This document shows positions 5,844-56,929 of a stretch of DNA of 64,000 nt, in pieces; within the stretch, counting starts at the first letter, position 1, and the number at the start of each line of letters is the position of its first letter. The notes beneath the pieces are model-generated. The model saw only the letters and a program-made list of their open reading frames with translations. It had not been told where the DNA came from and made no database searches. This stretch comes from Mimachlamys varia. Lineage: Eukaryota > Mollusca > Bivalvia > Pectinida > Pectinidae. The translations under genes were made by a program, and so were the position numbers. The stretch spans positions 31,060,229 through 31,124,228 of the forward strand of contig OX392533.1 of the NCBI GenBank assembly GCA_947623455.1. The letters run 5' to 3'.

Positions 5844-5871
5844 TTTTTCTGTCCCACATAAGAACCACTTT

Positions 5872-6169: not shown

Positions 6170-6905
6170 CATGCTGTCAACTCGTTCGATGAAAGATAAG
6201 TTTTTGTTTTATCCAAAAGTACAGCAGAATGTCTACTGAACCGGCAGAGAATGTTGAAAGACCAAATTCACAATTCATGAATTTCTTTCAACTATTCCAA
6301 GGTTCACCTAGTCCATGCATGGCAATCAATATCAGGTAGGTTTAAAAAGTGCAACTTTGGTGAGATTTCATCTTTGGATACATCATGTATGATTTCACAC
6401 AAATCATTGACGACCTGCCTGTACAGAAGTGTCCCCATAGTTTAGCTTGTATTGTGTTCGATAGATATCTCAGTATCACGTTTCACGTAGTTACCAATGA
6501 GTGCATCAGGAGGGAACCACGGGTTTTTTTCTATCAGTAAAATATTGTGAACATACTTCAGTACATGAACACATATATCATTATACTGAAGCATATAGAA
6601 CATTTACAATGTGAAGATGAATCATATTTGATATCAGTGATGTGCAGGAGTGATGCGATTGGGGAAATATTTGTATGGGTTTGTGAATTCGATGTGGTTG
6701 TATTATTCACCACAACTACCACCAGAATAGGATCCCTGACCATGCACTCCGTCCTAATTGGGATATGGTCTTTTCTTCAGATATGGAGTGTAACATTTCT
6801 TGCAAATCTTAGTATCATCTTCTACACACACACCATCTTTCTTGTGGACATATTTAGTCAACAATTTAATGATTTTCCAGCCTTACTACAATCATTAAAT
6901 CGTAT
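6170..6905 (-). pseudogene. Decayed N-terminal transposase region (copy A)
   Basis: The minus strand reads KLLTKYVHKKDGVCVEDDT (about 6863-6807), then KICKKCYTPYLKKRPYP before a stop. This looks like a Cys-rich N-terminal region of the transposase whose DDE part lies downstream at 5217-5843. Further along, YLSNTIQAKLWGHFCTG is readable between stops. The plus-strand frame at 6547-6981 is its shadow. Most of this segment (6170-6807) is duplicated at 8436-9071. Confidence 0.45.
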
Positions 6906-8435: not shown

Positions 8436-9274
8436 CATGCTGTCAACTCGTTCGATGAACGATAAGTTTTTGTTTTATCCAAAAGTACAGCAGAATGTCT
8501 ACTGAACCGGCAGAGAATGTTGAAAGACCAAATTCACAATTCATGAATTTCTTTCAACTATTCCAAGGTTCACCTAGTCCATGCATGGCAATCAATATCA
8601 GGTAGGTTTGCAAAGTGCAATTTTGGTGAGATTTCATCTTTGGATACATCATGTATGATTTCACACAAATCATTGACGACCTACCCGTACAGAAGTGTCC
8701 CCATAGTTTAGCTTGTATTGTGTTCGATAGATATCTCAGTATCACGTTGCACGTCGTCACCAATGCGTGCATCAGGAGGGAACCACGGGTTTTTTTCTAT
8801 CAGTAAAATATAGTGAAAAAACTTCGGTACATTAACACAAATCACTATACTGTAAGCATATAGAACATTTACGATGTGAAGATTAATCATATTTGATATC
8901 AGTGATGTGCATGAGTGATGCGATTGGGAAAATATTTGTATGGGTTTATGAATTTAATGTGGTTGTATTATCTACCAAACTACTACCAGAATAAGATTCC
9001 TGGCCATACTCTCCGTCCTGATCAGGATATGGTCTTTTCTTCAGATACTGAATGTAATATTTCTTGCAAATGACGTACGCCTATCATGCAGTGGAATGTT
9101 CATCGATAGACGATCCCCATTACGACGCCATTTTGTTTTTGGTAGAAACGGGGCGTGGTTTTAGCTCGATGGGAGGAGCTTGATACGATTGATCATGATT
9201 GACCATGATTCTATCGCACATTAGAACATAGTCCATATCCAATCAAAACGCGTATTACAAACGTATCGTGTTAG
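8436..9274. repeat. Duplicated block A'+B', second copy
   Basis: 8436-9071 matches 6170-6807 (for example 'catgctgtcaactcgttcga'). It then joins directly to the match of 7959 onward, skipping 1.15 kb present in the first copy. On the minus strand A' reads ICKKYYIQYLKKRPYPDQDG without the stop present in copy A, so A' is in places the less damaged copy of the transposase N-terminal region. Confidence 0.75.
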
Positions 9275-15215: not shown

Positions 15216-15372
15216 ATGGCTCAGTGTAAACAGACTGCTCAGGAATTTATCCAGAACACATTTAACCCGCATGTAGCGGTGTTGTGTAGCCCCGACGCCG
15301 AGGTGTTGTGTCAGAAGAATAATTTGACGTTTGTGGAACTTGTGCAGCCCTTCTGTCATCTTACTACGGAAG
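15216..15372 (+). CDS. TRAPPC8: TRAPPC8 exon 1 (coding part)
   Basis: Residues 1-53. It begins MAQCKQTAQEFIQNTF, closely matching the human start, and includes FVELVQPF. The donor is GGAAG|GTGCCT, ending in phase 1. The same frame is open upstream to a GTG at 15192, but the ATG is supported by conservation. Confidence 0.93.
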
Positions 15373-18300
15373 GTGCCTTCTTTTCTCAATTTATATGTTA
15401 TGTGATTAACTGTTATTTTAAGCTTACAGACCCATTACATAACTGCTGTATGCGGTAATTTAGAGGTCGGTACGGGCTAAAATATTATTAGGGACATCGT
15501 GTATTTCATCGATCGAAAAGTGGGAGGGGTGGACTGCGTTGCAGACCATTTAGTTCTGTGGAATGGACGAAGTGTACAGTTTTCATAACTTTATTTTTGG
15601 TGTCCATTAGACTTCAGATTGTGTTTGAATCCTTAAGTGTGTTCTAAACAGTATTTTCATAATCGTAATTGAGTTAAAAATGTAATTTTAATTTAATAAG
15701 TATGCAGCTTGCTGAATATTGTAAACTGCATGTCCTTATTTATCAGTTGATTCAAGTCACTATAAAGGCTTGTTCTCTACAGTACTGTATCTAAGCAAAT
15801 AGGAAGGGACTAGTTTTTAAATTCATTCTTTTAGCTAGCAGTAAAAAAAAATGCTGGTACAGTGCATCATCTTTATATCATGTTGCATTTGTCAGACAAA
15901 AACATGACATTACCAGGAATGTGATATTAAGGGAAATATGTTTTCCACTAGATCTGGTGTATTTCCAATCTCCATAATTAAAAGTAAGCTATTCAATGTA
16001 AATATGCAGATGTATCAAAATATAGTTGGGGTTATTTTTTTATGCAAGATTTTCTACAAGTACGTTGTATCTGCAACCAATCGAAAATATATTATTTTCT
16101 AGGTAGTTTATATGATCAGTGAAAAAAAAATGATCTTAAGAGGAATTCACATCAAAATACATGATATTAATTGACCCGTGTTTGCACTGGTATTTTATTG
16201 TTACATTATAAATGGGGTACTTTCTGAAATAAATGGGTGCCTTAATTCTGTATAGTTTAAGTGGGAGTCCTGAAAATTATTACGGGACCTTTTCAGTTTC
16301 TATGCTTGAAAAAGATATAGGGACGGCTTCAATGCAAACCCTGATTAACCAAATAAAATTACAAAGATTATATAGAGGGGAAAATGGTGTTTTGGAAAAA
16401 CATACTATCAAGAGGAATGCAATATTAACAGACTAGGGGTGATACATGTATTATATTAGTGGAAAATACTGTAGTACACAAGGAACAACAATGCATGAAG
16501 ACAAAGTTATTGAATATCAAGTTTAGTACATATCACCTTGCTAAGTGACTCAAAATTCTTAAAATATTGTAACAATCTTTGTTAAAAGTTTCCGGTAATA
16601 ACACTATTTGTGTAGAGTGGTAATTCATAATGCAAAACCAACTTAACATAAGTGTTGATCTTCCTAAATTGTGAAAGGTATTTTTGAAATTGCAGGTAGA
16701 AAATTATGACTCTTTTAATTTGTTTCGAATAGGGTTTTATACTCTGTGTTCAACTTAAACACTTATACAAATATACATCATGTTTTCCCCATTCTTTATA
16801 ATTTCCTCATTGTAGTGACTACAACACAACAAAAGTTGTTTCAAAACAAAATTGCAACCATGAGTGACATACTGACTTCTGTACAATGTATGTACAGCTT
16901 TTCATAGATCCTATTTTGCTAGCAGGTTTGTTAATCAAAATTACAAATTTCATTCACCCCCTGAAATTACATATAATGGACCACCGTGGGTGTAACAACC
17001 TTTAAATTGAAAGTTAACAAAGGTGACATTGTAAATTGCTTTTACTGTGGCGGAAAAACAATAGAATTGAGTCTTAAGCCTCACATCTGCTACATTTCTC
17101 ATCTCTGGCTCTATTCAAGAATTTGATAGTTATGTAATTGGACGAGAAGAAGTGATAAAAGATAGTGCCGTTGCTGGGGCTTGAGCCTGTGACCTTTTGC
17201 TCTCCAGTTTGATGCTCTATCACTGAGCTAAAGGAAAGTTCTCTACAGCACACGCTTGTAAGGCAACCTATAATCAATGCACAACTTTTACACTTGTATA
17301 ACCTTTCCCAAATCCTGCCTGATCCAATTAAAGTCATCTATTTTTTTACTTGTTGAAAATATTCTAAAAGAAGTATTTGATTGAATGTTTGCAGCTCACA
17401 TCCGTGACCCTAACAATGTGCCACACTGTATTCGACACCTGAAAATTTCAATGGTGGATATGACAGCACAGCCACCGCAGCAAGCCATCGCCAGGAAGAT
17501 GATGAGCGATGCCGTCGCCAATGCCCAGCCCCAGCTGGTTGAAGGTGGGAGGGGAAATGTCATATCCATCGGCAACTATGACCTTCAGTTATCAGGTACA
17601 GTATTACTGTATTAGCGGGGGTTTAGCTGACCCGTAATGGATGCTATGATTTCTTAGGACCAAAATGATATATATTTGATCCATGATTTAAAAATGATAG
17701 TGTTTCTATATATAGGATCATTAACATTTTTAGGCATCTGATCATGATCAACGAAAGATATTAAATGACCATCTGTTTAATTTGTTTTTTTTATTTAATA
17801 GAAATGATACATAGCATAGAGTTATAAATATTTTAAATTATATGATTGAATGTTGTAAGATTTAATACCCATTTAGCATTATTTGATGTTTAAACATGTG
17901 TCATTCTTGCAGCATCTACGCCGTGGTTTGAAGCTTACCGAGATGTGTTTCTACAAGTGCTTCCTCCTAGTGACCATGAGTTCCTAAACCATTGTGTAGG
18001 CTGTATCCTTTAAATGTCATTACAGTACTGTACAGTACAGGAAATGAGCTTAATTTACTTTACAGTACAGGAAATAAGCTTAACTTACTGTACAGTACAA
18101 CAAATAAGCTTAATTTACTGTGCAGTACAGGTAACAAGCTTTACTTAACTGTACAGTACAGGAAATAAGCTGAACACTTACTTTGCAGTACTTATAAGCT
18201 TAACGTACTGTGCAGTACAGGAAATTAGCTAAATTTTCTGTGCAGTACAGGAAATAAGCTTAACTTATTGTGCAGTACAGGAAATAAGATTAAAACTTAC

Positions 18301-21300
18301 TGTGCAGTACAGGAAATAAGCTTGTTAATTTACTGTACAGTACAGGTAAGAGCTTAATTTACTGTGCAATACAGGAAATAAGCTTAATTTACTGAGAACC
18401 TGTTTAATATGTTATCCTGTAGGTGTTAACCTCTGAAACCTCCCTCATTCCACATTTCCTATGGGGGAGGAAATGCATAAATCAATGTGACTAACTGCAA
18501 TGCTCAATTTGGCTTTCCCTTTTAATGTATCAAAATAGCTTTAAAAAGTATTTATTTGATCTAGAATATGGTATAGAATTACACATACACTGCAATAACT
18601 GTGATATCATTTTACCACAAGATATAGATTTCGAATTTGTGTAAATTTTAACTAAATGAAGGTTTTGGAGGAGATCAGTAAAGTTTGGTCAAACTGAGGG
18701 AGTCTCCCTCCCAATAAAGGAGGGTTAACAGGATAAAAGTTATCCCTGTATTCAGAAATCTTGCCTAATCTCCATTATCCGACCCAAGTATATTGTCCAA
18801 CATTATGTCAGATTAGATGTATTTCATTGTATGATGTATAGATGTGTTAAACCAAGGGCAGATAACATCATGCATGTAGTCCAGTTGTTTTGTTTAAATT
18901 ATTGAAAGATTTTGAATACATCTCATTACGTTCTGAAAAAAGTTGATAAAAAGCTGTGAAACATTAATTTGAATATGACATTCTGTTGATGCAATTTGAA
19001 ATTCCTGCTTTGAGATTCCTTATGCTAATAGCAGTTACAGTATATGGTTATTATGTTCCATAACATGACTTTCTTGACTTTGAATTATTCTGGTATGTCA
19101 GAGTTTAGATTAAACCAAAAGTGCTTAACACAAAAAATAAAATGTTTTATTTGCTAATATAACAAATGTGGTACTGTTAACTGGTATCTATACTAGCTTG
19201 TCCAGATCCTGTGTATTAAACCATACGATAAATTTTACAAAAAAACTATTGTGGTGGACCTTGACCCTGTGACCAGGTGTATTTGTCGTGTCCTCCGGCC
19301 ACTCTGACCCTATCACAGGGTTCAATAACCTGGCCGGTCAGCAACATCAACAGCAGACCCAGTTTCCCAACAAGATGCCCCGCTGGCTGGCCCCCAACCT
19401 CATGAAGTATTACGTACTGCTGCATGACGTCACAGAAGGGGAGGATGCAAAGTACGACTTAACTCAGTATAAAAGTCATAACCTAAGGTGTTTGCTTGTC
19501 CTTCCCCGGAGGGTTTTCACTTATCAGTGTGGTGACCATGTAATATAGTGGCTTAGAGAAACCCTGATGATTCTAAGGCCCTGGTTAAATGCTGTAAGAA
19601 AAGCTGAAAAAAAATAGAATTTAAAACTCAGGAAAAAAATGTTTGGAAATGCTTTTCACCTTCTTTTATTTATAATGATCAAAACAAAATTTATGAATAT
19701 CTGCAAACAATTTTGAAATTGAAAAAAAAAATTGCATTAGAAATCATTTAGAAACGCTTTAAACCATCCTTCATTATAATTTAAATAAAATGTTACTTTA
19801 TTTATAGTCAATGAAATTCATTGAAAATAACCTAAAAAGGCAAAACATTTTGAATGAAATTCATTGATATCATTTTCATTTGTTGAAGGGGTTTATTGTA
19901 TTTTTGAGGAGAATCAAGTGCCAGGGTTCTCTAATACTTCCACTTACAGTAGTTAGATTTGCTGTTAAGTGTTTCCTAGCTGGGAAAAAAAACAGAATAA
20001 TTCCGCTGATTTTCCAAGCTTAAATCACTATTAATATTAGAAACACCTTTGCATGACTTTTGTGTTTGGTATGTACATCTGCTTAGAGAAATAACTTTGT
20101 TTACAATTTGTCCTTTTTACTGGTTTATATTTTACAGATTAGATATTTGTAATTAATTTTATATGCTGAAAAAGAGTGCTATTTATATGAAATAACATAT
20201 TTTTTTGGACTTAAGTAAAAAAATTGAGTGGTAATGCATATATTTTCTGCTTCTGAATTCTTTTGAATCAATGTATTGGATGACTTGTTTATTTTATTTA
20301 GATGATGATATATGTATCTTTTTCTTTCAAGATAATTTCTTTTATAAATCAATCTGTCTGTGGATGAATGTATTCCTTTAGTGATCTATACCAATATCAA
20401 CCCCTTTCCACTCTTTTTTTTTGTTGATTAAATTTTTCTAGCATTTAAAATTTTTCTTGTATTGCCTTCTTTTTAGGGTAGCTTTAATTACTACAACAGT
20501 AGCCTTAAATATTCTGGCATAAATCCAAAACCTGCATTTGAGCTAGATACATATATTAAACTCATCTGATATCTAGTCTCACACCTATATAAAATATGAT
20601 GGTTAATTATTAATCTGTTTAAAACTTCATAAAATTTGATTCCAATTAAAAAAAATCCTAATTTCATTGTAGAGATGTCTAGATATTTTTGAAGTTTATA
20701 TGTCCCTATAATTTGCTATACTGATGGAAAGTATAATGATCTGAATCTTAATATTGTCTTTGGAAAAAATTGCTATCAAAAGGAAATTGTTATCAAAATG
20801 ATATCGGACTGAATCATATATCGTTGATCATACCAAATTTAAGATATTTGTACTTCCAACCATCAATTACGAAATCTGAACTGGTTCCCACTACTAGTAT
20901 TAGCCTTGTATAGTTATTGACATATCGGTTACATTGTGTAGCATTAATCAACATAACAAAAGTACTAAGCAGACACAAAAATCAGCTTTTGAAAAAAAAA
21001 TTAACATACTAAGTTTTATTTCTGTATCTTGGTCCTGATCAGGATGAAGCCTTATGTATACCTTTACAGGCAAAACTACCTTAACAACCCTTACACTCGA
21101 ATATGCTTTGATCATTACCCTACTTTTAACTTCTGTATCAAGATATACCAGTTCTCCAATATTTACCCTGGGAAGTTACATCACTATTCAAATGTCAAAA
21201 GCAGGCTATAAGATTAGTGTCCATATAGAAATGGACATCTAATTCTGATTGAAGGAATGTGTTCATGAGAGGAAACCAAGTCAAGCCTTAATTTGATATA

Positions 21301-48300: not shown

Positions 48301-51300
48301 TCCGAACAGCCACAGAGGTTCCTGTGTTGTCATGTGTGAACTAGAAAATCTAAGTCAGGTAAGATCAACTTCATTGATTTGTTAACTTAACAGCATTTAA
48401 CTAATTCAACCCTTAAGTTTCATAAAGAACTATTCCAACCTTTGAATTGGAAGAGTTCAAATGTGTTCCTGGGTGTGAGTGAGTTAAAGCACAAGTTTTC
48501 GGGCTGAATTGAAGTATAGAGTACATTGTTGAACATATTCAAGTTAAAAGTGTTCCATCAATTAAAATATACTCTTACTATTCTCATAAACTAGATTTCT
48601 GAAGTCATATTTTTGTCTCATCTTCGATGATAGTCAAGATAAGCGAGACTAAGGTGTTACTTTTCCTTCTGCCGCTGCGACCGCTTCAACATTTGCGCTA
48701 AAGTCCACTTTTCACAGTGTTATTGTTATCCGATGCATTGAAGTTTGGTTACATTACTCATTCTATCTTACTGAACAGGTAACTCCAATCTGGAGGGAAT
48801 TTGTTTGTGGGTTCTGTTGGTTGTGTATTTTGATAATTTACTTTACAGTTCAGTTTTCACAGTGAAATTGTTTACTTTTAATCTCTGTGCACAAAAGGTG
48901 AGACATATAATTACACATAATTCTTGTTAGAAATATTTTAGAAAATACATCTTGATTGGCATGTTGGGATGTTATTGAAGATTCAAGTGTTATATTTCAT
49001 TTTCACTTTATTTACAAAAAGTACACATGAATATGAAGACAAATGTCAACAAAAAACTTAGAACTACATCGTAACATATCTGCATTAAAATCTTACACTT
49101 TAATGATATAGATATACACAAAGGATAAATGCATAGGATCAAAATGAGATATGCATACCTTGACAGGGGAAGTAACTCTTAAGTCGGGGGATGGGGGGCT
49201 TTGAAAAAGAAGACATGCATTGCCTCAAAGAAACTCATTAACAGACACTCCTAATATAATACAAGGCATTGTCGCTAGGTTGTTATAGCAACATAATAAC
49301 CAGTTATGGACTATTTACAGATACAGAGTCAGCGAGCGTACGTGAAAGAGATTCAGATCAACCAGGTGTCCTGTGCCAGCGAAGAATGGTCTATACAGTA
49401 CCTTAATTCTCAACACGTCAAGTCAGAAATACAGATCGGTAGTAGGGAAACCATGCAGCTGTGTCTAAAAGCTGTCCGTAGTTCTACAAACTTAGGTAAC
49501 TATAGCCACGTTCTGGTAGCTATAGCCAAGTTTCTTCAGAAGGCAATACGGCTTCTGAAATTGGCCATTTGTAAAGGATATTTACATGAAAACAAAAGTT
49601 TTGACACAAGGACCTCATCTGGCTAAATTATTTTTGATTGCGTGTAAGGATTGATTAAAGATATAAGCGATCTGGTGTCATATCATATCTTACTCCATTT
49701 AACATATACAGTTATAATGACTAAATACATATTTTCAATCTGTTTATAAGTTGTGTTGAGGAGTTTGGTGGGGTGAACAAATAAAATATTTCAATGAAAA
49801 GTAAGGTTGAACCTTCCTGATAACTAGATATAAAACATTCAGATTTCTATTGATAAAAAAAAAAATGAAATATTATGAAAACCCTTATAAATATTGCATT
49901 GTATGCTATTGTTTGATACTGATGTATGTTATATTACAGATACCATTATGGGTAAAGAGTCGATTGTGTTCAGTGATGTTCCCTTTGACACTCAACAGGT
50001 AAGGTCTATAGTACTTTAATATCTTATTCTGTATGTAAATTGATACTGATGTAGTATCAGAATTTCGTTTGGGCAAATTTTCCATAGAAATATTGGTCTA
50101 TAGTATTTCACTAAATTGATACTATACTGTCAGAATTTTATTATGGAGCAATTCCATAATAATAGGATTAACATTAAGTTTTTTTGACAAATTCTCTCAC
50201 TGTTATACAGAGAAAATCCTAAAAGCCAATTGTATAGTAATGCAGCCATATGCAAGAATTTATGTGGAATTGACATTTTAAAACAAATCTTGACTTGTAT
50301 GAATTTTTTTCAGATATGTAGTGCAATGACACCATGTGCAGACTTTTTCTTCCGATCAAAATGCAGTATTAAGCCCCTTGATCCAGACACAGAGGTCCCT
50401 GTACCGCAGAGCAGACGGAAGACGCAAGAGTTCACCGACCTTAACTGTGCCATACAAGTGGGCTTCACACTTGTCATTCTGTGGAAAGTAAGTTGTGAAG
50501 TTCCAGAACACTAAAGATGTGGTTTTAATGCACAGTCTGGTTCTAAATGGCAGCTATCTTCCAAAATTACAAAATTCAACAAAATTTGGGACCATTTGTG
50601 TTCAAATATGAGTTACACAAGTATTGATTTTTGACCGTCTGTCTTTCTCTTGGAAATACTTGATTTCTTTTTCCCCCAGTTCTAAACAGACTCCATGAGT
50701 CATAACATAACAGGTTCGTCATTGGCTGCGTCATTCGAACCGAGAGGTTTTTGCGCATGATAACTTAAGTTCCCTTGGTCTTATCAAACTCAAACTTCAT
50801 ACAAATGTTCCTGACTGGAAGTCTTTGCTTGGAATCGTTTTTTAGATCTGAAGGTCAAAGTTCATGGTCACTGTTACTATAAATACAACTGACAGTTAAA
50901 CAAAGATTTCTATTTGATCACTTGAGTTCCATGGGTCTCTTGTGATTCTTGTTTATTTAAAAAAAAAATCCAATAAAAGTGTTTTTCTCTGTCTTGTTAT
51001 AATCTTTCCACTATAGGCCACACGGGTGACACATTCACTTCTATGGAATACTTGTTTAATGAGGTTTTGTTATCCACAGGCATGTGTAGTCAACGAGGAC
51101 GGAGAAGTTCAAATCAGGGTCGGTCAACACCACGTGACCATTGATAAGATTGACAACATCTTCACCTCATATCCTTATGTTCTTGTGAGTATTAGCAGGA
51201 AAAATCAGGGTCGGTCAACACCATGTAACCATTGATAAGATTGACAACATCTTCACCTCATATCCTTATGTTCTTGTGAGTATTAGCTGTAAACATCAGG

Positions 51301-54300
51301 GTCGGTCAACACCATGTAACCATTGATAGGATTGACAACATCTTCACCTCATATCCTTATGTTCTTGTGAGTATTAGCAGGAAAAATCAGGGTCGGTCAA
51401 CACCATGTAACCATTGATAGGATTGACAACATCTTCACCTCATATCCTTATATTCTTGTGAGTATTAGCAGGAAACATCAGGGTCGGTCAACACCATGTA
51501 ACCATTGATAGGATTGACAACATCTTCACCTCATATCCTTATGTTCTTGTGGGTATTAGCCGGAACTTATGCGGGAGAGATTGGAAGGAAATTGAATCAA
51601 TACAATTTCAAGAAATATTTTTATGAAAAAAGTTTTATGAAGACCCAATAGTACAGAAATTCATTTTGAACAAATCCTGTTGAACACAGCTTTTGGTTTT
51701 TAAGATAACCTTAAGATGACCTGTATTATTATATACTTACTATAAATACAGGGAAATAGTATACTTGATAAATACATGTGATTTTAAAACATATATCAGC
51801 TCACCGGGCCAATATGGGCAATTCTTCGCTAAGCGGGTAGAATACACTTGTGTATCAGTCGGCGTGCTGGGCGAGCCAAATACACTGTATCAGCCTGCTT
51901 CCGAATATGCCGTGACGTCATATGACGTTACAACAATGGAAATGGATAAGAGGACAGATGTTGACATTAAAATTTGTGAGAAAATTATGGAATCTCTCGT
52001 ATCAAGAATACTAGAGCTTGATGAATTAATAGAAGAAAAAGAGACATAAACTAAGATGCCGATGTAGATGAACAGGTAAATAATTCCGAATCCATTGCTT
52101 ATGGTATGAATTATTTTCTTAATCAACGTCCAGATGATGACAAAAGAAGGGACAAAAAAAGAGACATCATCAAAAATAGATTATCATGAACCGTCACAAA
52201 ATTCAAAGTATATAATAAATAGAATATGACATGGCCATTTCCATGTAAAATTCTCTATATAACAAGACTAGAATTGGTCAAATCTATCTGTGTAACAAAA
52301 ACTGTTTCTTAAAGCAGATCCCGACGGAACAGCCAGCAGTAAGGTTTGTGATGAAGGATCGAGAAGCCGAGGCGAGCACACCCGACTCAGAGGTCACCAC
52401 ACAGCTGGTTGACCTGAACTTTAACCATAGGTCAGAGGTCAAACATAACTTCTCAAGTGGACGGTAAGTTGAACTGCTGATATTAAACTTTTTTATTTTA
52501 ACAAGTGCATTGTAATTTTTATTTTTAAATGTCCTTCAAATAATTTGCTTAAGTTGAAAAAGGGTTCATTGTTTAAACAGTCTCTTGTTTAATTGTGAAA
52601 GATAGAAAAACATTAAAGAATTGACTTAAAATTCCTTATTTTCAAAACAAGATGATAAGAAGTAAATACAATGTGTTATTTAGTTATTTTGATCTGTTTG
52701 TTGAAAATGGAGACAATTTAATATATAATTGAGATTTATTTCATATTTCAGAAATTGTATTACCGTAACTACTGTTGATACTTATGTAGGTAAAATTTCG
52801 AAATGTTTTTTTCTGTATATTCGCAGATTGTGCCAAGTACCAGTGACATTACTTCTACAAAATTGCTCAAAAGTGACCCTGGATGTTCTTGTGGACACGA
52901 GTCAATCTCCAGACAGGTATGGCTGTCATAGAATTACATTGTAACATAGAACAAAATCCATGGTTTGTTCTTGATAAGTTAGAAATAATCTGTGATTTGT
53001 AGAGATAATATACAGCTTTACATGGGATTTGTTTGAAGATAAAATTGGGATCAGTTTGATTATTTTTTATCAGGTGCCTTAACTCTTTGCTCCCTAATAC
53101 CACCTGTAGTCGTGATGATTTAGGTCACTGTGCAGGCGAGTCCCGACTACAGGTTAGGTAAACAATGAATGTGCTTTTGATCGCAAATCCCGACTATAGT
53201 CGTGGTATTTACCTGTTGTTAAACGATGCGTGATTGGCTGGAATCAGGCATTCCTTTGGAAAACCTTGAATTTCAGCCAATCAGAGAGGGACTAATAAAG
53301 CTTTATACAGCTTCCAAAAATGGGGATTTCATTTTGACAAAAAGACGTGAATAATGATAAATATCTTTGGACTAAATTTTGTGAGTAAATATTTGAGTAT
53401 TTAGAAAGTTACACCAGTTTTTATTTGTTAGGCAATTACAATCTTCACTCCAGTCTCAGCAGCCATATTGTCTTAGGGCACTAGGGCCCAGTGATGGTTA
53501 GGGCAGCACTCACAGATAGCTGCTAGGGCTTAAAGAGTTAAATCAACAGGAATGAAACTGAGTTGCACTTAATAGCCAGCATCAGATCCAGAATAACGTA
53601 AATATGTAAATGTAAATACACCAACATACCACCTCCAGTAATTATTCTGACCCCTTACTTTTTGTTAGACTAGATTGTGTGTTTCCCCCCTGGGCTAACT
53701 GTAGATAAATACTATCAGGGGCTAAATGTAGATAAATACTGTCAGGGGCTAACTGTAGATAAATATTGTCAGGGGCTTACTGTAGGATAAATATTGTCAG
53801 GGGCTAACTGTAGATACATACTGTCGGGGACTAACTGTAGGATAAATATTGTCAGGGGCTTACTGTAGGATAAATACTGTCGGGGGCTAACTGTAGATAC
53901 ATACTGTCAGGGTCTAACTGTAGATAAATACTGTCAGGGGCTAGCTGTAGATAAATACTGTCAGGGTCTAACTGTAGATAAATACTGTCAGGGGCTAGCT
54001 GTAGATAAATACTGTCAGGGTCTAAGTGTAGGTTAAATACTGTCAGGGGCTAAGTGTAGGATAGATATTGTCAGGGGCTAGCTGTAGGATAATTATTGTC
54101 AGGGGCTAGCTGTAAGATCAGTTCTGTCAGGGGCTAAGTGTAGGATAAATATTGTCAGGGGCTTACTGTAGGATAAATATTGTAAGGGGCTAACTGTAGA
54201 TAAATACTGTCAGGGTCTAACTGTAGATAAATACTGTCAGGGGCTAACTGTAGATAAATACTGTCAGGGGCTAACTGTAGATAAATACTGTCGGGGTCTA

Positions 54301-56929
54301 ACTGTAGATAAATATTGTCAGGGGCTAACCGTAGGACACATACTGTAAGGAGCTATTTGATTGATAATTACTGAAAGTTAATTTCATTGTTTTACAGGTT
54401 GAGCAGTAAATACTGTAAGATAATTCATTGTTTTACAGGTTGAGCAGTAAATACTGTAAGATAATTTCCCTGTTTTACAGGTTGAGCAGTAAATACTGTA
54501 AGATAATTTCACTGTTTTACAGGTTGAGCAGTAAATACTGTAAGATAATTCATTGTTTTACAGGTTGAGCAGTAAATACTGTAAGATAATTTCACTGTTT
54601 TACAGGTTGAGCAGTAAAAACTGTAAGATAATTTCCCTGTTTTACAGGTTGAGCAGTAAAAACTGTAAGATAATTTCACTGTTTTACAGGTTGAGCAGTA
54701 AATACTGTAAGATAATTTCACTGTTTTACAGGTTGAGCAGTAAAAACTGTAAGATAATTTCACTGTTTTACAGGTTGAGCAGTAAAAACTTTAAGATAAT
54801 TTCCCTGTTTTACAGGTTGAGCAGTAAAAACTGTAAGATAATTTCACTGTTTTACAGGTTGAGCAGTAAATACTGTAAGATAATTTCACTGTTTTACAGG
54901 TTGAGCAGTAAAAACTGTAAGATAATTTCCCTGTTTTACAGGTTGAGCAGTAAAAACTGTAAGATAATTTCACTGTTTTACAGGTTGAGCAGTAAATACT
55001 GTAAGATAATTTCACTGTTTTACAGGTTGAGCAGTAAAAACTGTAAGATAATTTCCCTGTTTTACAGGTTGAGCAGTAAATACTGTAAGATAATTTCACT
55101 GTTTTACAGGTTGAGCAGTAAATACTGTAAGATAATTTCACTGTTACAGGTTGAGCAGTAAATACTGTAAGATAATTTCACTGTTTTACAGGTTGAGCAG
55201 TAAAAACTGTAAGGTAATTTCACTGTTACAGGTTGAGCAGTAAATACTGTATAAGATAATTTCACTGTTTTACAGGTTGAGCAGTAAATACTGTAAGATA
55301 ATTTCACTGTTACAGGTTGAGCAGTAAATACTGTAAGATAATTTCACTGTTTTACAGGTTGAGCAGTAAATACTGTATAAGATAATTTCACTGTTTTACA
55401 GGTTGAGCAGTAAATACTGTAAGATAATTTCACTGTTTTACAGGTTGAGCAGTAAATACTGTAAGATAATTTCACTGTTTTACAGGTTGAGCAGTAAATA
55501 CTGTAAGATAATTTCACTGTTTTACAGGTTGAGCAGTAAATACTGTAAGATAATTTCACTGTTTTACAGGTTGAGCAGTAAATACTGTAAGATAATTTCC
55601 CTGTTTTACAGGTAGAACAGTAAATACTGTAAGATAATTTCACTGTTTTACAGGTTGAGCAGTAAATACTGTAAGATAATTTCACTGTTACAGGTTGAGC
55701 AGTAAATACTGTAAGATAATTTCACTGTTTTACAGGTTGAGCAGTAAAAACTGTAAGGTAATTTCACTGTTACAGGTTGAGCAGTAAATACTGTATAAGA
55801 TAATTTCACTGTTTTACAGGTTGAGCAGTAAATACTGTAAGATAATTTCACTGTTACAGGTTGAGCAGTAAATACTGTAAGATAATTTCACTGTTTTACA
55901 GGTTGAGCAGTGAATACTGTAAGATAATTTCACTGTTTTACAGGTTGAGCAGTAAATACTGTAAGATAATTTCACTGTTTTACAGGTTGAGCAGTAAATA
56001 CTGTAAGATAATTTCACTGTTTTACAGGTTGAGCAGTAAATACTGTAAGATAATTTCCCTGTTTTACAGGTTGAGCAGTAAAAACTGTAAGATAATTTCA
56101 CTGTTTTACAGGTTGAGCAGTAAATACTGTAAGATAATTTCACTGTTTTACAGGTTGAGCAGTAAATACTGTAAGATAATTTCCCTGTTTTACAGGTTGA
56201 GCAGTAAATACTGTAAGATAATTTCCCTGTTTTACAGGTTGAGCAGTAAATACTGTAAGATAATTTCACTGTTTTACAGGTTGAGCAGTAAATACTGTAA
56301 GATAATTTCACTGTTTTACAGGTTGAGCAGTAAATACTGTAAGATAATTTCCCTGTTTTACAGGTTGAGCAGTAAATACTGTAAGATAATTTCACTGTTT
56401 TACAGGTTGAGCAGTAAATACTGTAAGATAATTTCACTGTTTTACAGGTTGAGCAGTAAATACTGTAAGATAGTTCATTGTTTTACAGGTTGAGCAGTAA
56501 ATACTGTAAGATAATTTCACTGTTTTACAGGTTGAGCAGTAAATACTGTAAGATAGTTCATTGTTTTACAGGTTGAGCAGTAAATACTGTAAGATAATTT
56601 CCCTGTTTTACAGGATGAGCAGTAAATACTGTAAGATAATCTCACTGTTTTACAGGTTGAGCAGTAAGTCCAATGAAGCTTCCTTGTATGATCATTCAGG
56701 AGAGTATCACCATAACAGCAGTTTTAACTGGGTGGGACAGACCATTACACAACTACGTCTGGAGCCAGAGCAGCAGGCCGCAGTGCGACTGTCAGCGTGT
56801 TTCAGCAAGCCGGGTATTTACAACCTGAACCGTGTGGCTGTGTTTGTGACGTACACACGAGACTCAAACCAGATGGTGCTGCAGAGACATCGATCTCCGA
56901 GTGTGGTGGTGATTGGGGAGGTGTCCTGA
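15216..56929 (+). CDS. TRAPPC8: TRAPPC8, trafficking protein particle complex subunit 8 (whole gene)
   Basis: This is the metazoan homologue of yeast Trs85, the TRAPPIII subunit. TRAPPIII acts as a Rab1 exchange factor at ER-Golgi and autophagy membranes (family knowledge). The spliced product aligns along its whole length with human TRAPPC8 (about 1,435 aa, recalled): MAQCKQTAQEFI at the start, DPWSQFL, DHDRLRIFIHEF, SALLLEQAAHC, NPLKVMLVLTEVTLLW, VRGKQKLEVQGPRLN, GGIHEIHFMFYYE, PCADFFFRS and VPVTLLLQNCSK near the end. I place 28 conserved exons and two candidate microexons, and every junction is GT-AG and phase-consistent. The length is 1,479 aa, or 1,506 aa with the microexons. The N-terminal two thirds should be helical repeats; the C-terminal third is beta-rich, Ig-like. 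ATG 15216 is chosen by homology. Introns carry several splice-site-containing minisatellites. The gene appears intact. Confidence 0.95.
17150..17245 (-). repeat. tRNA-derived SINE fragment in intron 1
   Basis: On the minus strand it reads 'tagctcagtgatagagcatc' (A-box-like), then 'aaactggagagcaaaaggtc' and 'ggctcaagcccc' (B-box-like). This is the order of a tRNA-derived SINE head. Poor pairing and the degenerate B box argue against a working tRNA gene. Confidence 0.5.
17395..17595 (+). CDS. TRAPPC8: TRAPPC8 exon 2
   Basis: Residues 53-120. Acceptor TTTGCAG, donor ATCAG|GTACAG, phase 1 at both ends. RDPNNVPHCIRHLKI aligns with human RDPNNQLHVIKNLKI, and NYDLQLS with DYDLNIS. Confidence 0.93.
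17913..18002 (+). CDS. TRAPPC8: TRAPPC8 exon 3
   Basis: Residues 120-150, 90 nt. Acceptor TTCTTGCAG. The donor GGCT|GTATCC restores Cys across the junction. TPWFEAYRDVFLQ and HEFLNH are conserved. A 30-bp tandem array starts about 22 bp after the donor. Confidence 0.9.
18020..18395. repeat. ~30-bp minisatellite just inside intron 3
   Basis: About 11-12 imperfect units of 'tgcagtacaggaaataagct' plus 'taatttac'. It begins about 22 bp downstream of the exon-3 donor. Most units contain 'tacag', and two read 'acaggtaac' or 'acaggtaag', a donor-like junction. Confidence 0.8.
19277..19451 (+). CDS. TRAPPC8: TRAPPC8 exon 4
   Basis: Residues 150-208. Acceptor TGACCAG, donor GCAAA|GTACGA (phase 2). 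PNLMKYYVLLHDVTEG aligns with human PNTLKYYVLLHDVSAG. It has a Gln-rich insert (QQHQQQTQ) before that motif. Confidence 0.9.
19452..21611 (+). other. TRAPPC8: Intron 4, no feature recognised
   Basis: AT-rich sequence of 2.16 kb with A/T homopolymers. No tandem array, mobile element or further exon is evident. Confidence 0.5.
21612..21777 (+). CDS. TRAPPC8: TRAPPC8 exon 5
   Basis: Residues 208-263. Acceptor TACCCAG, perfect donor AAT|GTAAGT, ending in phase 0. ADAIYQSMKSTYGASGCHLL aligns with human AEAIYEEMKQKYGTQGCYLL, and DPWSQFL with DPWSQYL. Confidence 0.92.
23097..23275 (+). repeat. tRNA-derived SINE in intron 5
   Basis: 'gggtggtgcagtggatattg' resembles an A box and 'gcttgattcccc' a weak B box. 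Then comes the tail shared by many invertebrate SINEs: 'gtgggttttttccgggtact' followed by 'ccggttt...ctcccacaata'. A more degraded relative lies at 38262-38420. Confidence 0.65.
23792..23827 (+). CDS. TRAPPC8: Candidate TRAPPC8 microexon a (36 nt)
   Basis: Acceptor TTTTATTCCAG and donor TGG|GTAAGT flank exactly 36 nt encoding KKRQKARYYIAW, with no stop. It is phase 0 at both ends, matching the phase-0 junction between exons 5 and 8. The 12 residues are basic and aromatic, unlike the acidic exon 8. No match is recalled in the human protein, so it may be an alternatively used cassette or lineage-specific. Confidence 0.6.
24144..24535. mobile_element. piggyBac-like MITE with TTAA duplication, copy 1
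   Basis: The ends 'AGTCCCAATATACGTAACTT' and 'TGCGTATATTGGGCCT' are inverted and flanked by TTAA on both sides. The interior matches the copies at 43220 and 45560 ('tctgaaaaattatga', 'ccatgcaaaaataagcc', 'aagaaactcctgacagaaaa'). TTAA target sites are the hallmark of piggyBac elements. It is non-coding. Confidence 0.8.
25088..25132 (+). CDS. TRAPPC8: Candidate TRAPPC8 microexon b (45 nt)
   Basis: The acceptor context TTTGATTTACTGTTGAAG is followed by 45 nt encoding DPELCYWRVRFGNKG and the donor GGG|GTGAGA. It is phase 0 at both ends, like microexon a and the flanking exons, so either can be skipped or included without changing frame. The acceptor has a weaker polypyrimidine tract. There are no stops in the frame, and the composition looks coding. 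Confidence 0.5.
25881..25970. mobile_element. ~90-bp palindromic repeat ('ttcacccctgaa' family), copy 1
   Basis: 'actcattcacccctgaaga' and 'tttgaactcttccat' are mirrored by 'ttggaatagttcataatgaa' and 'tcagggatgaatga'. Relatives lie at 29999, 48396 and 57938. Confidence 0.6.
27077..27331. mobile_element. Foldback MITE, 'actgtaaaccaactta' ends
   Basis: 'tactgtaaaccaactta' at the left and 'taagttggtttacagta' at the right are exact inverses, about 250 bp apart. The interior contains 'gtacagtacagtacagg' and no coding sequence. Confidence 0.75.
29224..29365 (+). CDS. TRAPPC8: TRAPPC8 exon 8 (acidic linker)
   Basis: Residues 264-311 (291-338 with microexons). Acceptor TTTTACAG, donor GGAAG|GTCAGT. 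It encodes EGADYDVSMGNGTDDG and a Ser/Glu-rich stretch, in the place of the poorly conserved acidic linker of the human protein. Confidence 0.85.
29999..30092. mobile_element. ~90-bp palindromic repeat ('ttcacccctgaa' family), copy 2
   Basis: 'cacccctgaagacacatctg', 'aactcttcca' and 'ttcaggggttaatgagtt' match the family at 25881. It has an insert 'acacagg' in the centre. Confidence 0.6.
30320..32396. repeat. 46-bp minisatellite with acceptor-like sites, end of intron 8
   Basis: About 45 units (length over period) of 46 bp, reading 'ggtatagagtgtatgtttga', 'ttgtgatgtttacag', 'ttaatgtccct'. Variants include t/a in 'gatt/agtg', ag/gg before 'gtgt' and c/t in 'gtcc/tct', and blocks of variants recur in order (higher-order repeats). 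Every unit has 'gatgtttacag', close to the real exon-9 acceptor 'ggtgtttacag' at 32423-32433, which lies only 37 bp past the array. Open frames across it on either strand are repeat readings. Confidence 0.95.
32434..32735 (+). CDS. TRAPPC8: TRAPPC8 exon 9
   Basis: Residues 311-411. Acceptor TTGGTGTTTACAG, donor AACAG|GTAAGC, ending in phase 0. The first half is a divergent Ser/Asp/Thr-rich linker. The second half has CLTTSDHDRLRIFIHEFS, aligning with human CLTLTDHDRIRQFIQEFT. Confidence 0.93.
33174..33286 (+). CDS. TRAPPC8: TRAPPC8 exon 10
   Basis: Residues 412-449. Acceptor TTTTCCAG. It encodes LTSRKGIPRSIFSVTKKWFGG (matching human LISRKGLSRSLFSATKKWFSG) and a less conserved tail. The donor is GTAGT|GTAAGT, phase 2, completed by G of exon 11 (V-Y-S-Q-E-A-P-E-L-Q). 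Its last ~13 bases (ACACAACTGTAGT) are themselves a diverged start of the 19-bp array that follows. Confidence 0.92.
33274..34537. repeat. 19-bp splice-donor minisatellite, left part
   Basis: Unit: GTAAGTAACAAACCGTAGT. About 65 units here. The first GTAAGT is the real exon-10 donor, and each later unit repeats AGT|GTAAGT. Variants: 'aactg', 'aaccgt', 'aacggt', 'aacctt'; GTAGGT in place of GTAAGT; 'gtgtattagtaac'; and 14-bp units that lose GTAAG. On the minus strand 19-bp periodicity gives long repetitive open frames of no significance. Confidence 0.97.
34538..35081. mobile_element. 544-bp TIR element inserted inside the donor array
   Basis: The ends are inverted: 'catcctcgatatccaggg' / 'gttacgatc' on the left and 'gatcgtaaccct' / 'tggctagcgaagatg' on the right. 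Similarity continues inward ('atctacacccctgg' against 'ccaagggtgaagat'), about 60 bp of TIR in all. TA flanks both sides (34536-34537 and 35082-35083), as for Tc1/mariner-type elements. The interior frame at 34645-34863 resembles no transposase. The repeat resumes immediately after. Confidence 0.8.
35084..37022. repeat. 19-bp splice-donor minisatellite, right part
   Basis: About 100 further units of the same 19-bp repeat up to 'aaactgtagtatgtaatgtg'. Added variants are 'gtaagtatc' and 'accgtactgtaag'. Longer blocks such as 'gtgtattagtaacaaaccg' recur at irregular spacing, showing block duplications. Array plus insertion fill about 87% of the 4,285-bp intron 10. Confidence 0.97.
37260..37460. 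repeat. Dispersed repeat fragment in intron 10 ('agttatggccc')
   Basis: 'gttatggccc' occurs at both ends of a ~170-bp stretch, in a style shared with the repeat at 38990-39400 ('gttacgaccc'). This is a weak assignment. Confidence 0.3.
37572..37722 (+). CDS. TRAPPC8: TRAPPC8 exon 11
   Basis: Residues 449-499. Acceptor TTGTTACAG, donor GCACTG|GTGGGT, phase 0. YSQEAPELQMRRLADLAF, YHTAKRDF and TAGAL match human YPPEAPELQIRKMADLCF, YHTAKKDF and AAGAL. Confidence 0.94.
38135..38238 (+). CDS. TRAPPC8: TRAPPC8 exon 12
   Basis: Residues 500-534. Acceptor CTCTGCAG, donor TGCAA|GTAAGT (phase 2). EMASLSVFMQG and YPSHYMESAITTYL match human EMAAVSAFLQP and YPAHYMDTAIQTYR. Confidence 0.93.
38262..38420 (+). 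repeat. Degraded SINE in intron 12
   Basis: 'gatggtgcagtattgtgtac', 'ttgccttt', 'gtgaaaaggtatgaggtc' and 'ttctctgggtactctggttt' follow the order of the SINE at 23097. Confidence 0.55.
38990..39400. repeat. Dispersed bivalve repeat in intron 12
   Basis: 'tagtcccctttt', 'ccgtctgtccgactgtctgt', then two loose internal copies of 'gcacatattgaact' with 'gtacagata' or 'atacagaaat', ending 'ggggggccggtaggggacat'. The copies are about 150 bp apart. No coding frame is supported. Confidence 0.5.
39434..39539 (+). CDS. TRAPPC8: TRAPPC8 exon 13
   Basis: Residues 534-569. Acceptor GTTCCAG, donor GCGAG|GTACAA, phase 0. GMYNEAALQFIKLTSE aligns with human SKYSEAAALLIRLTSE. Confidence 0.93.
39610..40115. repeat. 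~40-bp minisatellite in intron 13 ('tttacatctacagtt')
   Basis: About 12 imperfect units built on 'tacatctacagttaaaactt', 'gttatctgtacatca' and 'tttacatctacagtcgaacc'. Each unit carries 'atctacag', an acceptor-like string. It starts about 70 bp after the exon-13 donor. Confidence 0.8.
40713..40844 (+). CDS. TRAPPC8: TRAPPC8 exon 14
   Basis: Residues 570-613. Acceptor TTTTCCCCAG, donor GCTCAG|GTATAT, phase 0. DSDLRSALLLEQAAHCYINM and VRKYSFHMILAGHRYSKA are nearly identical to the human segment, the most conserved stretch of the protein seen here. Confidence 0.96.
41309..41380 (+). CDS. TRAPPC8: TRAPPC8 exon 15
   Basis: Residues 614-637, 72 nt. Acceptor GGTTACAG, donor GCCGAG|GTAAGT. RKHALRAYSQALQVYKG and WSLAE match human KKHALRCYCQAMQVYKG and WSLAE. 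Confidence 0.95.
42060..42212 (+). CDS. TRAPPC8: TRAPPC8 exon 16
   Basis: Residues 638-688. Acceptor GCTCTTACAG, donor TATAAG|GTAAGA. DHINFTLGRQSFNLKQLENA and QQGAFLREYLFVYK match human DHINFTIGRQSYTLRQLDNA and QQGAFLREYLYVYK. Confidence 0.96.
42616..42742 (+). CDS. TRAPPC8: TRAPPC8 exon 17
   Basis: Residues 689-731. Acceptor TTTTTCAG, donor AGTCAAG|GTAGGG, phase 1. LPELPLPVLDSNSTKVLLG aligns with human LPQLPLPYINSSATRVFFG. Two more copies of the donor, each 72 bp further on and in the same open frame, follow at 42814 and 42886, so the exon end is ambiguous. Confidence 0.88.
42727..42905. repeat. 72-bp triplication of the exon-17 donor
   Basis: The segment 'cacagccaagtcaaggtagg' plus 'gcattaactttactgctg', 'tttat...actattgtcagg' and 'tgatatagccaag' repeats with an exact 72-bp period (donors after 42742, 42814 and 42886); the third copy is shortened after the donor. 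72 is divisible by three and the frame stays open, so the later donors would add 24 or 48 residues. Confidence 0.93.
43126..43705. mobile_element. Palindromic MITE (12827 family) with a nested insertion
   Basis: 'ggccccagtttcatcaacgt' at the left and 'aacgttgatgaaaccggggc' at the right match the solo copy at 12827-13023. The palindrome is split at 'cataacTTAA' by the 43220-43611 element. Removing that element leaves about 190 bp, the size of the solo copy. Confidence 0.85.
43220..43611. mobile_element. piggyBac-like MITE with TTAA duplication, copy 2 (nested)
   Basis: AGGCCCAATATACGTAAC and its inverse at 43590-43607, flanked by TTAA on both sides. It lies in inverse orientation to the copies at 24144 and 45560. 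It is 392 bp including both TTAAs, the same length as copy 1. Because it sits inside another MITE, it inserted later. Confidence 0.85.
43805..43993 (+). CDS. TRAPPC8: TRAPPC8 exon 18
   Basis: Residues 731-794. Acceptor GTCTCCAG, donor TTGGAG|GTACGA, phase 1. Moderately conserved: RWQKLEEALV, SNTFRSTLQCY against human QWRELEEQVV, PSNFHPTQYCL. Confidence 0.9.
44036..44122. repeat. 24-bp repeat, three copies, early intron 18
   Basis: 'gtttgatttgttctcagggc' plus 'ttta' is repeated three times with a partial fourth, starting about 43 bp after the exon-18 donor. Each unit contains 'tgttctcag', an acceptor-like string. Confidence 0.85.
44535..44686 (+). CDS. TRAPPC8: TRAPPC8 exon 19
   Basis: Residues 794-844. 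Acceptor TTGTACAG, donor GTTAAG|GTAGGC, phase 0. EPIIVEVYLANPLKVMLV and LTEVTLLW match human EEPITVEVAFRNPLKVLLLL and LTDLSLLW. This begins the beta-rich C-terminal region. Confidence 0.94.
45008..45082 (+). CDS. TRAPPC8: TRAPPC8 exon 20
   Basis: Residues 845-869, 75 nt. Acceptor TTTCCTGCAG, donor TTGACG|GTCAGT. NEIIQTQVIDEIIM corresponds to human EMIGAEVISEFLI. Weakly conserved, but phase-consistent on both sides. Confidence 0.85.
45560..45939. mobile_element. piggyBac-like MITE with TTAA duplication, copy 3
   Basis: TTAA-AGGCCCAATATACTTAA at the left and 'ACGTAGATTGGGCCT'-TTAA at the right. The interior matches copy 1 in the same orientation, with small deletions. Confidence 0.8.
46096..46350 (+). 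CDS. TRAPPC8: TRAPPC8 exon 21
   Basis: Residues 870-954. Acceptor TTTTATACCAG, donor CTACAG|GTCAGT, phase 0. GELRIVEISYNLGG, VRGKQKLEVQGPRLNIT, YGPDRRLD and EMPLLQ match human GELHILGVVYNLG, VRGKQDLEIQGPRLNNT, YGPDRRLD and EMPLLE. Confidence 0.95.
47133..47536 (+). CDS. TRAPPC8: TRAPPC8 exon 22
   Basis: Residues 955-1089, the largest coding exon (404 nt). Acceptor TTTAATTTCAG, donor ATAAG|GTAAGT (phase 2). FPRTLLCGEVHAVMLQFTNVG, SPEFFTLG and GGIHEIHFMFYYEPVQKLPNI match human FPTGLLCGEIRKAYVEFVNVS, RPEFFTFG and EGVHEINFLFYYESVKKQPKI. Confidence 0.95.
48030..48135. repeat. Fragment of the bivalve multi-unit repeat in intron 22
   Basis: 'gataaaagtcccagggtagt', 'gatatttgg' and 'aatgaatgaccttgactta' follow the unit order of the repeat at 11870-12620. 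Confidence 0.5.
48208..48358 (+). CDS. TRAPPC8: TRAPPC8 exon 23
   Basis: Residues 1089-1139. Acceptor CTTTTTCAG, donor AGTCAG|GTAAGA, phase 0. HRLLRHTAVVNT and SLSVRAV match human HRILRHTAIICT and SLNVRAT. Confidence 0.93.
48396..48487. mobile_element. ~90-bp palindromic repeat ('ttcacccctgaa' family), copy 3
   Basis: 'attcaacccttaagtttcat' and 'ggaagagttcaaatgtgttc' with 'gggtgtgagtgagtta' match the reverse complement of the family. Confidence 0.55.
49321..49495 (+). CDS. TRAPPC8: TRAPPC8 exon 24
   Basis: Residues 1140-1198. Acceptor CTATTTACAG, donor AACTTAG|GTAACT, phase 1. YVKEIQINQVSCASEEWSIQ and SRETMQLCLKAVR correspond to human GVKEFHIVQVSSSSKHWKLQ and SREKGKFCFKAIR. Confidence 0.92.
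49940..49998 (+). CDS. TRAPPC8: TRAPPC8 exon 25
   Basis: Residues 1198-1217, 59 nt. Acceptor ATATTACAG, donor CAACAG|GTAAGG. It encodes DTIMGKESIVFSDVPFDTQQ, in the place of human YTFADIIFGNEQ. Poorly conserved, but required to keep phase 1 to 0 between its neighbours. Confidence 0.8.
50314..50487 (+). CDS. TRAPPC8: TRAPPC8 exon 26
   Basis: Residues 1218-1275. Acceptor AATTTTTTTCAG, donor TGGAAA|GTAAGT. SAMTPCADFFFRS and VGFTLVILWK match human SASPCADFFYRS and LNIVILWK. Confidence 0.94.
51080..51184 (+). CDS. TRAPPC8: TRAPPC8 exon 27
   Basis: Residues 1276-1310. Acceptor TTATCCACAG, donor GTTCTT|GTGAGT, phase 0. ACVVNEDGEVQIRVGQHHVT corresponds to human AYVVEDSKQLILEGQHHVI. Its last 70 bases plus donor are tandemly repeated downstream. 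Confidence 0.92.
51115..51570. repeat. 91-bp tandem array of exon-27 tail plus donor, five copies
   Basis: Unit starts at 51115, 51206, 51297, 51388 and 51479, an exact 91-bp period. Each has 70 bp of exon 27, then GTGAGT and ~15 bp of intron. Copies 2-5 keep the exon frame (VGQHHVTIDxIDN), differing by GTG to GTA (synonymous) and, in three copies, AAG to AGG (Lys to Arg). The last copy's donor is GTGGGT. The exon's acceptor is not included, so copies lack a strong 3' splice site. Confidence 0.95.
51765..52049 (+). other. Intronic 94-codon open frame, origin unknown
   Basis: The frame in intron 27 reads YGQFFAKRVEYTCVSVGVLG, then a helical acidic end (ICEKIMESLVSRILELDELI). It lacks good splice sites consistent with the TRAPPC8 phase and has no human counterpart. 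It could be a fragment of a mobile-element or exapted gene. Chance cannot be excluded. Confidence 0.2.
52318..52463 (+). CDS. TRAPPC8: TRAPPC8 exon 28
   Basis: Residues 1311-1359. Acceptor TTAAAGCAG, donor GGACG|GTAAGT (phase 2). A variable linker: PTEQPAVRFVMKDREAEAST, then QLVDLNFNHRSEVKHNF, in the place of the variable human segment before VPVTLLL. Confidence 0.87.
52827..52916 (+). CDS. TRAPPC8: TRAPPC8 exon 29
   Basis: Residues 1359-1389, 90 nt. Acceptor ATATTCGCAG, donor GACAG|GTATGG (phase 2). LCQVPVTLLLQNCSKVTLDV corresponds to human LCLVPVTLLLSNCSKADVDV. Confidence 0.94.
53084..53540. mobile_element. ~457-bp TIR element in intron 29
   Basis: 'ttaactctttgctccctaat' at the left and 'gctagggcttaaagagttaa' at the right form inverted ends. 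The interior contains repeated 'cccgactacagg' / 'cccgactatag' and an inverted pair 'gattggctggaat' / 'atttcagccaatc'. It has no coding frame. Confidence 0.6.
53690..54350. repeat. 27-bp minisatellite in intron 29
   Basis: About 24 units of 'gataaatactgtcaggggct' plus 'aactgta', with variants 'gggtct' and 'agctgta'. It is separated by only about 30 bp from the 42-bp acceptor array, with which it shares 'aaatactgt'. Confidence 0.93.
54380..56667. repeat. 42-bp splice-acceptor minisatellite ending in the last exon
   Basis: About 54 units of 'tgttttacaggttgagcagt' plus 'aaatactgtaagat' plus 'aatttcac'. The last unit supplies the real acceptor TTTTACAG|G and the first 12 bases of exon 30. Because 42 bp is 14 codons, the forward frame reads (LSSKYCKIISLFYR)n. 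Units of 40, 41 or 44 bp ('cactgttacag', 'gatagttcattg', 'ctgtataagat') break the frame at places. Each unit also has CT|GTAAGA, a donor-like string 17 nt after the acceptor. Confidence 0.97.
56656..56929 (+). CDS. TRAPPC8: TRAPPC8 exon 30 (terminal coding exon)
   Basis: Residues 1389-1479 and stop TGA (56927-56929). Acceptor CTGTTTTACAG. FNWVGQTITQLRLEPEQ and ACFSKPGIYNLNRVAVFV match human FTWLGQTQYKLKL and ACFVHTGVYNLGTPRVFA. The first 12 coding bases (GTTGAGCAGTAA) are the end of the 42-bp array. The in-frame upstream acceptors at 56613 and 56571 would add 14 or 28 residues. Confidence 0.93.

Follow-up and report, generated by a model that had tools for sequence, protein, structure and literature searches.

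The TRAPPC8 locus

The window, by which we mean the whole 64,000-nucleotide stretch of DNA analysed here (C7:31060229-31124228 in a 975-Mb assembly), carries on its plus strand a gene at 15216..56929 that is identified by homology as TRAPPC8 of the scallop Mimachlamys varia. The model comprises 28 coding exons and 1479 amino acids, every intron is of the GT-AG type and there are no internal stops. Most exons were located with a human TRAPPC8 guide sequence; splice edges were set manually and by reading frame, then corrected by alignment to the proteins of relatives, and the model was checked against two of these. The best homologue, TRAPPC8 of Ylistrum balloti, is 94% identical across the full length, and the second (90% identity) is a protein from a contig of 5159 nucleotides, which is too short to contain the introns and is therefore taken to be a transcript. 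Exon pieces from the window also match Drosophila TRAPPC8 (PDB code 7b6e). A lancelet origin of the window was considered and set aside, since the homologues are those of a scallop. When the exon-side junctions are joined, on genomic DNA only, the product agrees with the proteins of both Ylistrum and the transcript-length contig. A donor at 49515 in the draft model was rejected, the homologues having revealed an extra exon that moves the donor to 49495. An optional, in-frame micro-exon of 36 bp (23792-23827, plus strand) lies between exons 5 and 6; it resembles one in the Ylistrum protein, is missing from the transcript-length relative and is likely to be an alternative micro-exon.

Upstream of the gene, an open frame of 219 amino acids on the minus strand (window positions 5220-5876) gives a sub-threshold match to the Pfam family DDE_Tnp_4 (19.1 bits, cut-off 24.8) and is probably a transposase remnant, presumably of the Harbinger superfamily. 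Two near-identical open frames of 58 amino acids, at 6364-6537 and 8630-8803 and some 2.3 kb apart, suggest that a segment in this upstream region has been duplicated.

Arrays at the exon-intron junctions

The positions of arrays with respect to junctions were derived by comparing arrays reported by TRF with the independently modelled exon edges, and all coordinates below refer to the plus strand. TRF found all eight of the arrays that the initial annotation had named at exon edges of this gene. By coordinates alone, five arrays contain a splice site, namely the donors 33286, 42742, 49495 and 51184 and the acceptor 56656. The 19-bp array (33273..37019) has a unit consisting of a 13-bp exon tail and the donor GTAAGT, with the real donor (33286/33287) in its first copy; since an insert of 548 bp at 34536-35083 splits the array, the true copy number is 168, not the 196 given by TRF. 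The 72-bp x 2.4 array (42720..42891) spans the donor 42742/42743 and takes in exon tail, donor and intron start. The 20-bp x 1.9 donor duplication (49495..49532, donor 49495/49496) starts at the last exon base, and the 91-bp x 5 array (51111..51565) is made of 74 bp of exon tail, the donor 51184/51185 and 17 bp of intron. At the acceptor side, the 42-bp array (54365..56667) holds 55 acceptor copies of a unit with 33 intron and 9 exon bases, the last of which contains the real acceptor 56655/56656. A 27-bp array (53692..54364) runs into it and forms the distal part of a compound acceptor array, 12 of 13 bases being common to both units.

A sixth case is the 46-bp array of about 45 copies at 30334..32433, upstream of the acceptor 32433/32434. 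TRF ends this array at 32396, 37.5 bp from the acceptor, and the initial annotation had it stop 37 bp short of that site. Alignment reveals instead that a last, diverged copy holds the real acceptor, matching the unit at 23 of 28 bases, the best score among 56 splice sites (shuffle P 0.002). The four arrays previously said to include a splice site all do so, and the count was too low, for the 20-bp donor duplication and the 46-bp array have to be added. Six of the nine splice-adjacent arrays are accordingly built from their own junction, five by coordinates and the 46-bp array by alignment, and in each of these the model splices at the array's exon-side edge. Viewed by unit, the best match among the 56 splice sites is the unit's own junction for six of the ten (shuffle P 0.002 each), and for the 27-bp unit its own junction likewise ranks first (shuffle P 0.006).

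The three further splice-adjacent arrays begin a short distance inside the intron. The 30-bp array (18026..18394) starts 23.5 bp past the donor 18002/18003, the 37/76-bp array (39612..40118) 72.5 bp past the donor 39539/39540 and the 24-bp x 3.7 array (44031..44119) 37.5 bp past the donor 43993/43994. No likeness to their own donors was detected by alignment of the 30-bp and 37-bp units (shuffle P 0.87 and 0.19, respectively), and the 24-bp unit bears only a marginal likeness to the exon tail at its donor (shuffle P 0.05).

Placement of arrays within TRAPPC8

Nine of the 11 intron arrays with a TRF score of at least 50 have a splice site within 75 bp (binomial P 2.3e-6), as do all eight that score at least 100 (P 3.6e-7). 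The null expectation is the fraction of TRAPPC8 intron sequence that lies this close once arrays are collapsed to points, 0.156. When arrays are re-placed randomly within their own introns the corresponding P values are 2e-5 and 1e-5, respectively, and the earlier contention that random placement would not favour exon edges in this way is therefore upheld by both calculations. Five in-gene TRF rows with scores of 40-42, situated 151-470 bp from a splice site, were left out; if they are kept the proportion becomes nine of 16.

A second comparison concerns the segments from which the arrays were founded. Segments of the observed unit lengths, dropped at random, would cross a junction in 0.75 of 11 cases; the number observed is five by coordinates (P 3.5e-4), or six with the 46-bp array (P 2e-5). 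At 40 TRAPPC8 junctions away from the arrays a search for hidden duplications yielded two that exceeded the random 95% level, as chance predicts. TRAPPC8 was chosen for this very pattern, so the P values for the gene are not to be taken at face value and a control from outside is needed.

Arrays in other genes

That selection lends weight to an alternative explanation, in which the arrays are ordinary members of a dense minisatellite population, falling anywhere in introns, and the window was simply a striking one to choose. The genome is certainly rich in such sequences. Arrays constitute 23.7% of a 200-kb sample (C1:20.0-20.2 Mb) that was picked by coordinate alone before its sequence had been viewed, and tandem repeats are given as 21.7% for the scallop A. 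pleuronectes (PMC10225492). What has to be decided is whether, in genes other than TRAPPC8, arrays are closer to junctions than this abundance predicts.

TMEM94, which lies in the C1 sample, was selected for modelling after the repeat units of the sample had been viewed. With the Ylistrum homologue as guide the gene was resolved into 28 exons encoding 1363 amino acids, with no internal stops. Of its 27 arrays with a score of at least 100, nine have a splice site within 75 bp, against a null of 11.4% (P 0.0023; P 0.0047 by permutation). Widening the limit to 100 bp leaves the count at nine of 27 and weakens the excess (P 0.015), and at a score of at least 50 there are 11 of 37 arrays within 75 bp (P 0.0022). 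Placement near exon edges is therefore supported in TMEM94 too, more weakly than in TRAPPC8. Most TMEM94 arrays (18 of the 27 scoring at least 100) lie more than 75 bp from every splice site, as the dense-minisatellite explanation would have it. Three arrays span junctions, a 59-bp array at an acceptor and 75-bp and 94-bp arrays at donors, and this is no excess (three of 37 where 3.1 would be expected, P 0.63); a post hoc restriction to units of 100 bp or less gives three of 31 against 1.6 (P 0.21). Two arrays of the sample, at 49698-51070 and 51593-52084, are 0.5 kb apart and have a common 59-bp unit. The nearer of the two extends across the exon 3 acceptor of TMEM94, and the farther, since it has the same unit, looks like a detached piece of the junction array.

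Junction-spanning arrays recur elsewhere. In the same C1 stretch the tail and donor of a NUBP-like exon (Pfam ParA) form an array of 68 bp x 13. When the whole assembly was searched with Pfam, 74 matches to myosin-head exons were listed, and three 10-kb stretches (L023, L024 and L025) were chosen for exon density; the open-frame readings of that search, which may run through stop codons, carry no weight here. In L024, on C18, four of nine arrays span donors of homology-supported exons where 0.36 would be expected (P 2e-4). One further exon, ending near 4065, was left out of this count because it had been recognised partly through its own duplication; its inclusion would give five of nine (P 1.1e-5). 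No array was seen to span a junction in L023, which has two arrays, or in L025, which has one apart from a trinucleotide run. For L023, L025 and L024 the junctions were set at 16, 10 and 12, respectively, which is twice the listed exon matches and not the outcome of exact models. Pooling of TMEM94 with the three myosin stretches results in seven spanning arrays of 43 where 2.1 are expected (P 0.004), or eight of 43 with the exon near 4065 (P 0.001). The pool includes the 31 of 37 TMEM94 arrays that have units of at most 100 bp; the six with longer units and the trinucleotide run in L025 were left out.

The units themselves carry a similar signal. Among 60 units from outside the window (period 12-120, score at least 80) seven hold a donor scoring at least 9, where random segments would give 2.0 (Poisson P 0.0045), and acceptor motifs in the same units are not clearly enriched (five against 2.9). 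A count over the complete assembly gave 1520 occurrences of the tandem pattern AAGGTAAGT-N6-34-AAGGTAAGT and 311 of its backwards control, raw counts that are unscaled for the frequency of the single motif; the latter, AAGGTAAGT, was found six times in 304 kb, against three for its own backwards control. The figure of 1520 is inflated by arrays of many copies, the first 100 listed places representing 11 arrays.

The near-junction enrichment in TMEM94, the pooled excess of spanning arrays and the donor motifs within units all argue against the view that arrays fall anywhere, and we regard it as unlikely despite the absence of a spanning excess in TMEM94. The genome of this scallop is rich in minisatellites and, with support from two genes and from the motif counts, these are nearer to splice junctions than random placement predicts. 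The excess of arrays that actually span a junction is supported for TRAPPC8 and for one myosin stretch, and not for TMEM94. That TRAPPC8 is special in itself, as the initial annotation had it, is not supported, given the array content of the C1 sample and the spanning arrays in myosin, NUBP-like and TMEM94 genes; the gene is an extreme case of something seen repeatedly in this genome.

Sequence of the repeat units

The copies in the TRAPPC8 arrays retain splice signals to a high degree. Of the 168 copies in the 19-bp array, 165 have the donor GT and 128 the full GTAAGT, and the AG is present in 46 of 46 copies of the 46-bp array and 55 of 55 copies of the 42-bp array. TRAPPC8 has 26 other acceptors; 48 of the 55 in the latter array score at or above the median of these, and all 55 at least equal the weakest of them. 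Distinct units number 59 in the 19-bp array with its insert included, 18 in the 46-bp array and 14 in the 42-bp array.

Such retention could mean that the arrays are functional, the repeated sites serving to recruit splicing factors, to support weak sites or to regulate isoforms. The quality of the 42-bp acceptors fits this idea, and so does the donor GT of the 19-bp array, which is conserved at 99.1% where other positions average 94.0%. The splice dinucleotides are among the best conserved positions. Several of the others in the 19-bp array are, however, conserved at 99-100%, and in four arrays other positions of the unit equal the splice dinucleotides, so that the comparison gives no clear sign of selection on splice dinucleotides within copies. 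Donor strength is likewise equivocal. The seven array-adjacent donors of TRAPPC8 (18002, 33286, 39539, 42742, 43993, 49495 and 51184) are weaker than the other 21 (two-sided p 0.005-0.010), and the difference holds when TRAPPC8 and TMEM94 are pooled (12 against 43 donors, p 0.005-0.006), as would be expected if arrays supported weak sites; the result is post hoc, and for TMEM94 alone it is not significant (p 0.15 and 0.42). The sequence that would follow on the use of inner sites also tells against a function. Any inner 19-bp donor, if used, would bring a TAA directly after the exon, and of 54 acceptors located by pattern in the 42-bp array only three, the real one included, are followed by an open frame. 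A function for the arrays in splicing therefore seems decidedly improbable.

Two arrays preserve a difference between the copy at the exon boundary and the others. In the 91-bp array the four intronic copies have changes in common that the exon copy does not show, a difference to be expected if the latter is constrained by coding. In the 46-bp array the boundary copy matches at 23 of 28 bases, compared with a mean identity of 96% among copies. Exclusion of the boundary copy from homogenisation, a trait of the lancelet arrays known as mirages, is thus found in both the 46-bp and the 91-bp arrays.

The initial idea that the units are unrelated is supported. At E 0.01 none of the ten has a match elsewhere in the window, its own array aside, and the 91-bp array, the only one searched against the whole genome, has a single match there, its own locus. 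On folding, only the 30-bp unit among the ten is somewhat more structured than shuffled sequences (z -2.15), and the ten have no strand skew in common.

The insert in the 19-bp donor array is a sequence element of a different kind. It occupies 34536-35083 and has imperfect inverted ends of 59 bp (76% identity) with TA at both edges. A Pfam search of two open frames inside it identified no family. A peptide encoded at the end of the element was recognised by eye in the C1 sample at about 196448-196633 on the minus strand, and the element thus looks dispersed and MITE-like.

Elements with internal tandem repeats are present in bivalve genomes, and with this inverted-repeat element lying inside the 19-bp array one might consider that mobile elements, either introners or repeat-bearing transposons, delivered the arrays by inserting at splice sites. 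The lack of matches elsewhere in the window, and the fact that six of the units are made of local exon and intron sequence, render that origin highly improbable. Least credible of all is a false tandem expansion during assembly, for although the copy numbers of the long arrays are open to misassembly, the copies differ from one another, an element sits inside one array and similar arrays occur in other genes.

Origin of the arrays

We consider it probable that the TRAPPC8 arrays are of the mirage type, that is, junction-spanning tandem duplications that have expanded and are tolerated as intron. Short segments spanning or close to an exon-intron junction would first be duplicated in tandem, and the duplicated segments would then grow by slippage or unequal exchange. 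Splicing would continue at the exon-side copy, leaving the protein unchanged, while the further copies, with their exon-derived part and splice signal, would become intron and could multiply at little cost. The arrays would thus be tolerated through continued use of the exon-side site, all extra copies being relegated to the intron. We infer that duplication came first and intronisation second, that the extra copies are neutral and that the exon-side site is the one used in Mimachlamys varia. Against the mirage reading, three of the nine splice-adjacent arrays, those with 30-, 37- and 24-bp units, are without convincing likeness to a junction.

Why might so many arrays have started at junctions? 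The initial annotation suggested that mutation is locally biased or that splicing is under selection, and either may contribute. We suggest, tentatively and with less confidence than we place in the mirage reading itself, that scallops may have a mutational process for which transcribed exon-intron junctions are the favoured starting points of tandem duplication. It might, for example, be coupled to transcription or to co-transcriptional splicing. If such a process does operate it would have produced a large, genome-wide population of donor and acceptor arrays, separate in origin from that of lancelets, which would be a standing reservoir for the lengthening of introns and for new exons and new introns. 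Should the enrichment prove to be genome-wide, scallops would represent natural experiments on how the spliceosome chooses among dozens of near-identical sites, and on the growth and gain of introns by tandem duplication, processes that have until now been argued from few genes; mirages would then be no peculiarity of lancelets.

Comparison with known systems

Several systems invite comparison. Introners and transposons leave dispersed related copies, which the TRAPPC8 units lack in the window at E 0.01 and, for the 91-bp array, also in the whole genome. A molluscan minisatellite is known from intron 3 of an abalone TSSK1-like gene, a tandem array with a 27-bp unit and variable copy number (PMC6905558). 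Like the TRAPPC8 arrays it is tandem and intronic; in the passages of that report available to us it is not described as being at, or containing, a splice site. No molluscan array that spans a junction was recognised in the open-licence PMC literature, as represented by titles, the starts of abstracts and some passages.

Introns can also be gained when a segment with splice signals is duplicated in tandem, examples being potato RdRp and ATP2A1 (PMC4974935). The scallop arrays resemble these cases in that the duplicated segment contains splice signals. They differ in that no exon is seen between the copies, all of which are internal to an intron that has a separate far end, and the protein across the junctions matches those of relatives.

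The closest parallel is with the mirages of lancelets, so that arrays of this kind are already known, from a few genes. In the accounts consulted, those of Adh3, globin (BflGb6 and BflGb9), troponin C (TnC) and PGBD5 are tandem repeats that extend across exon-intron boundaries, carry splice signals and leave mRNA splicing undisturbed (PMC3087553, PMC3902484). The TRAPPC8 arrays, as read from one haploid sequence, share the first two of these properties. Their units span the exon-intron boundary, in five cases by coordinates and in a sixth by alignment, and the splice signals are retained (GT in 165 of 168 copies, AG in 55 of 55 and 46 of 46). The scallop arrays differ in occurring in another phylum, in a bivalve mollusc, and in that enrichment near junctions has been tested here. 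They are also more numerous within a gene: six junction-spanning arrays of up to 168 copies occur in TRAPPC8, whereas the figures given for the haplotypes of lancelet BflGb6 are 6 and 3.
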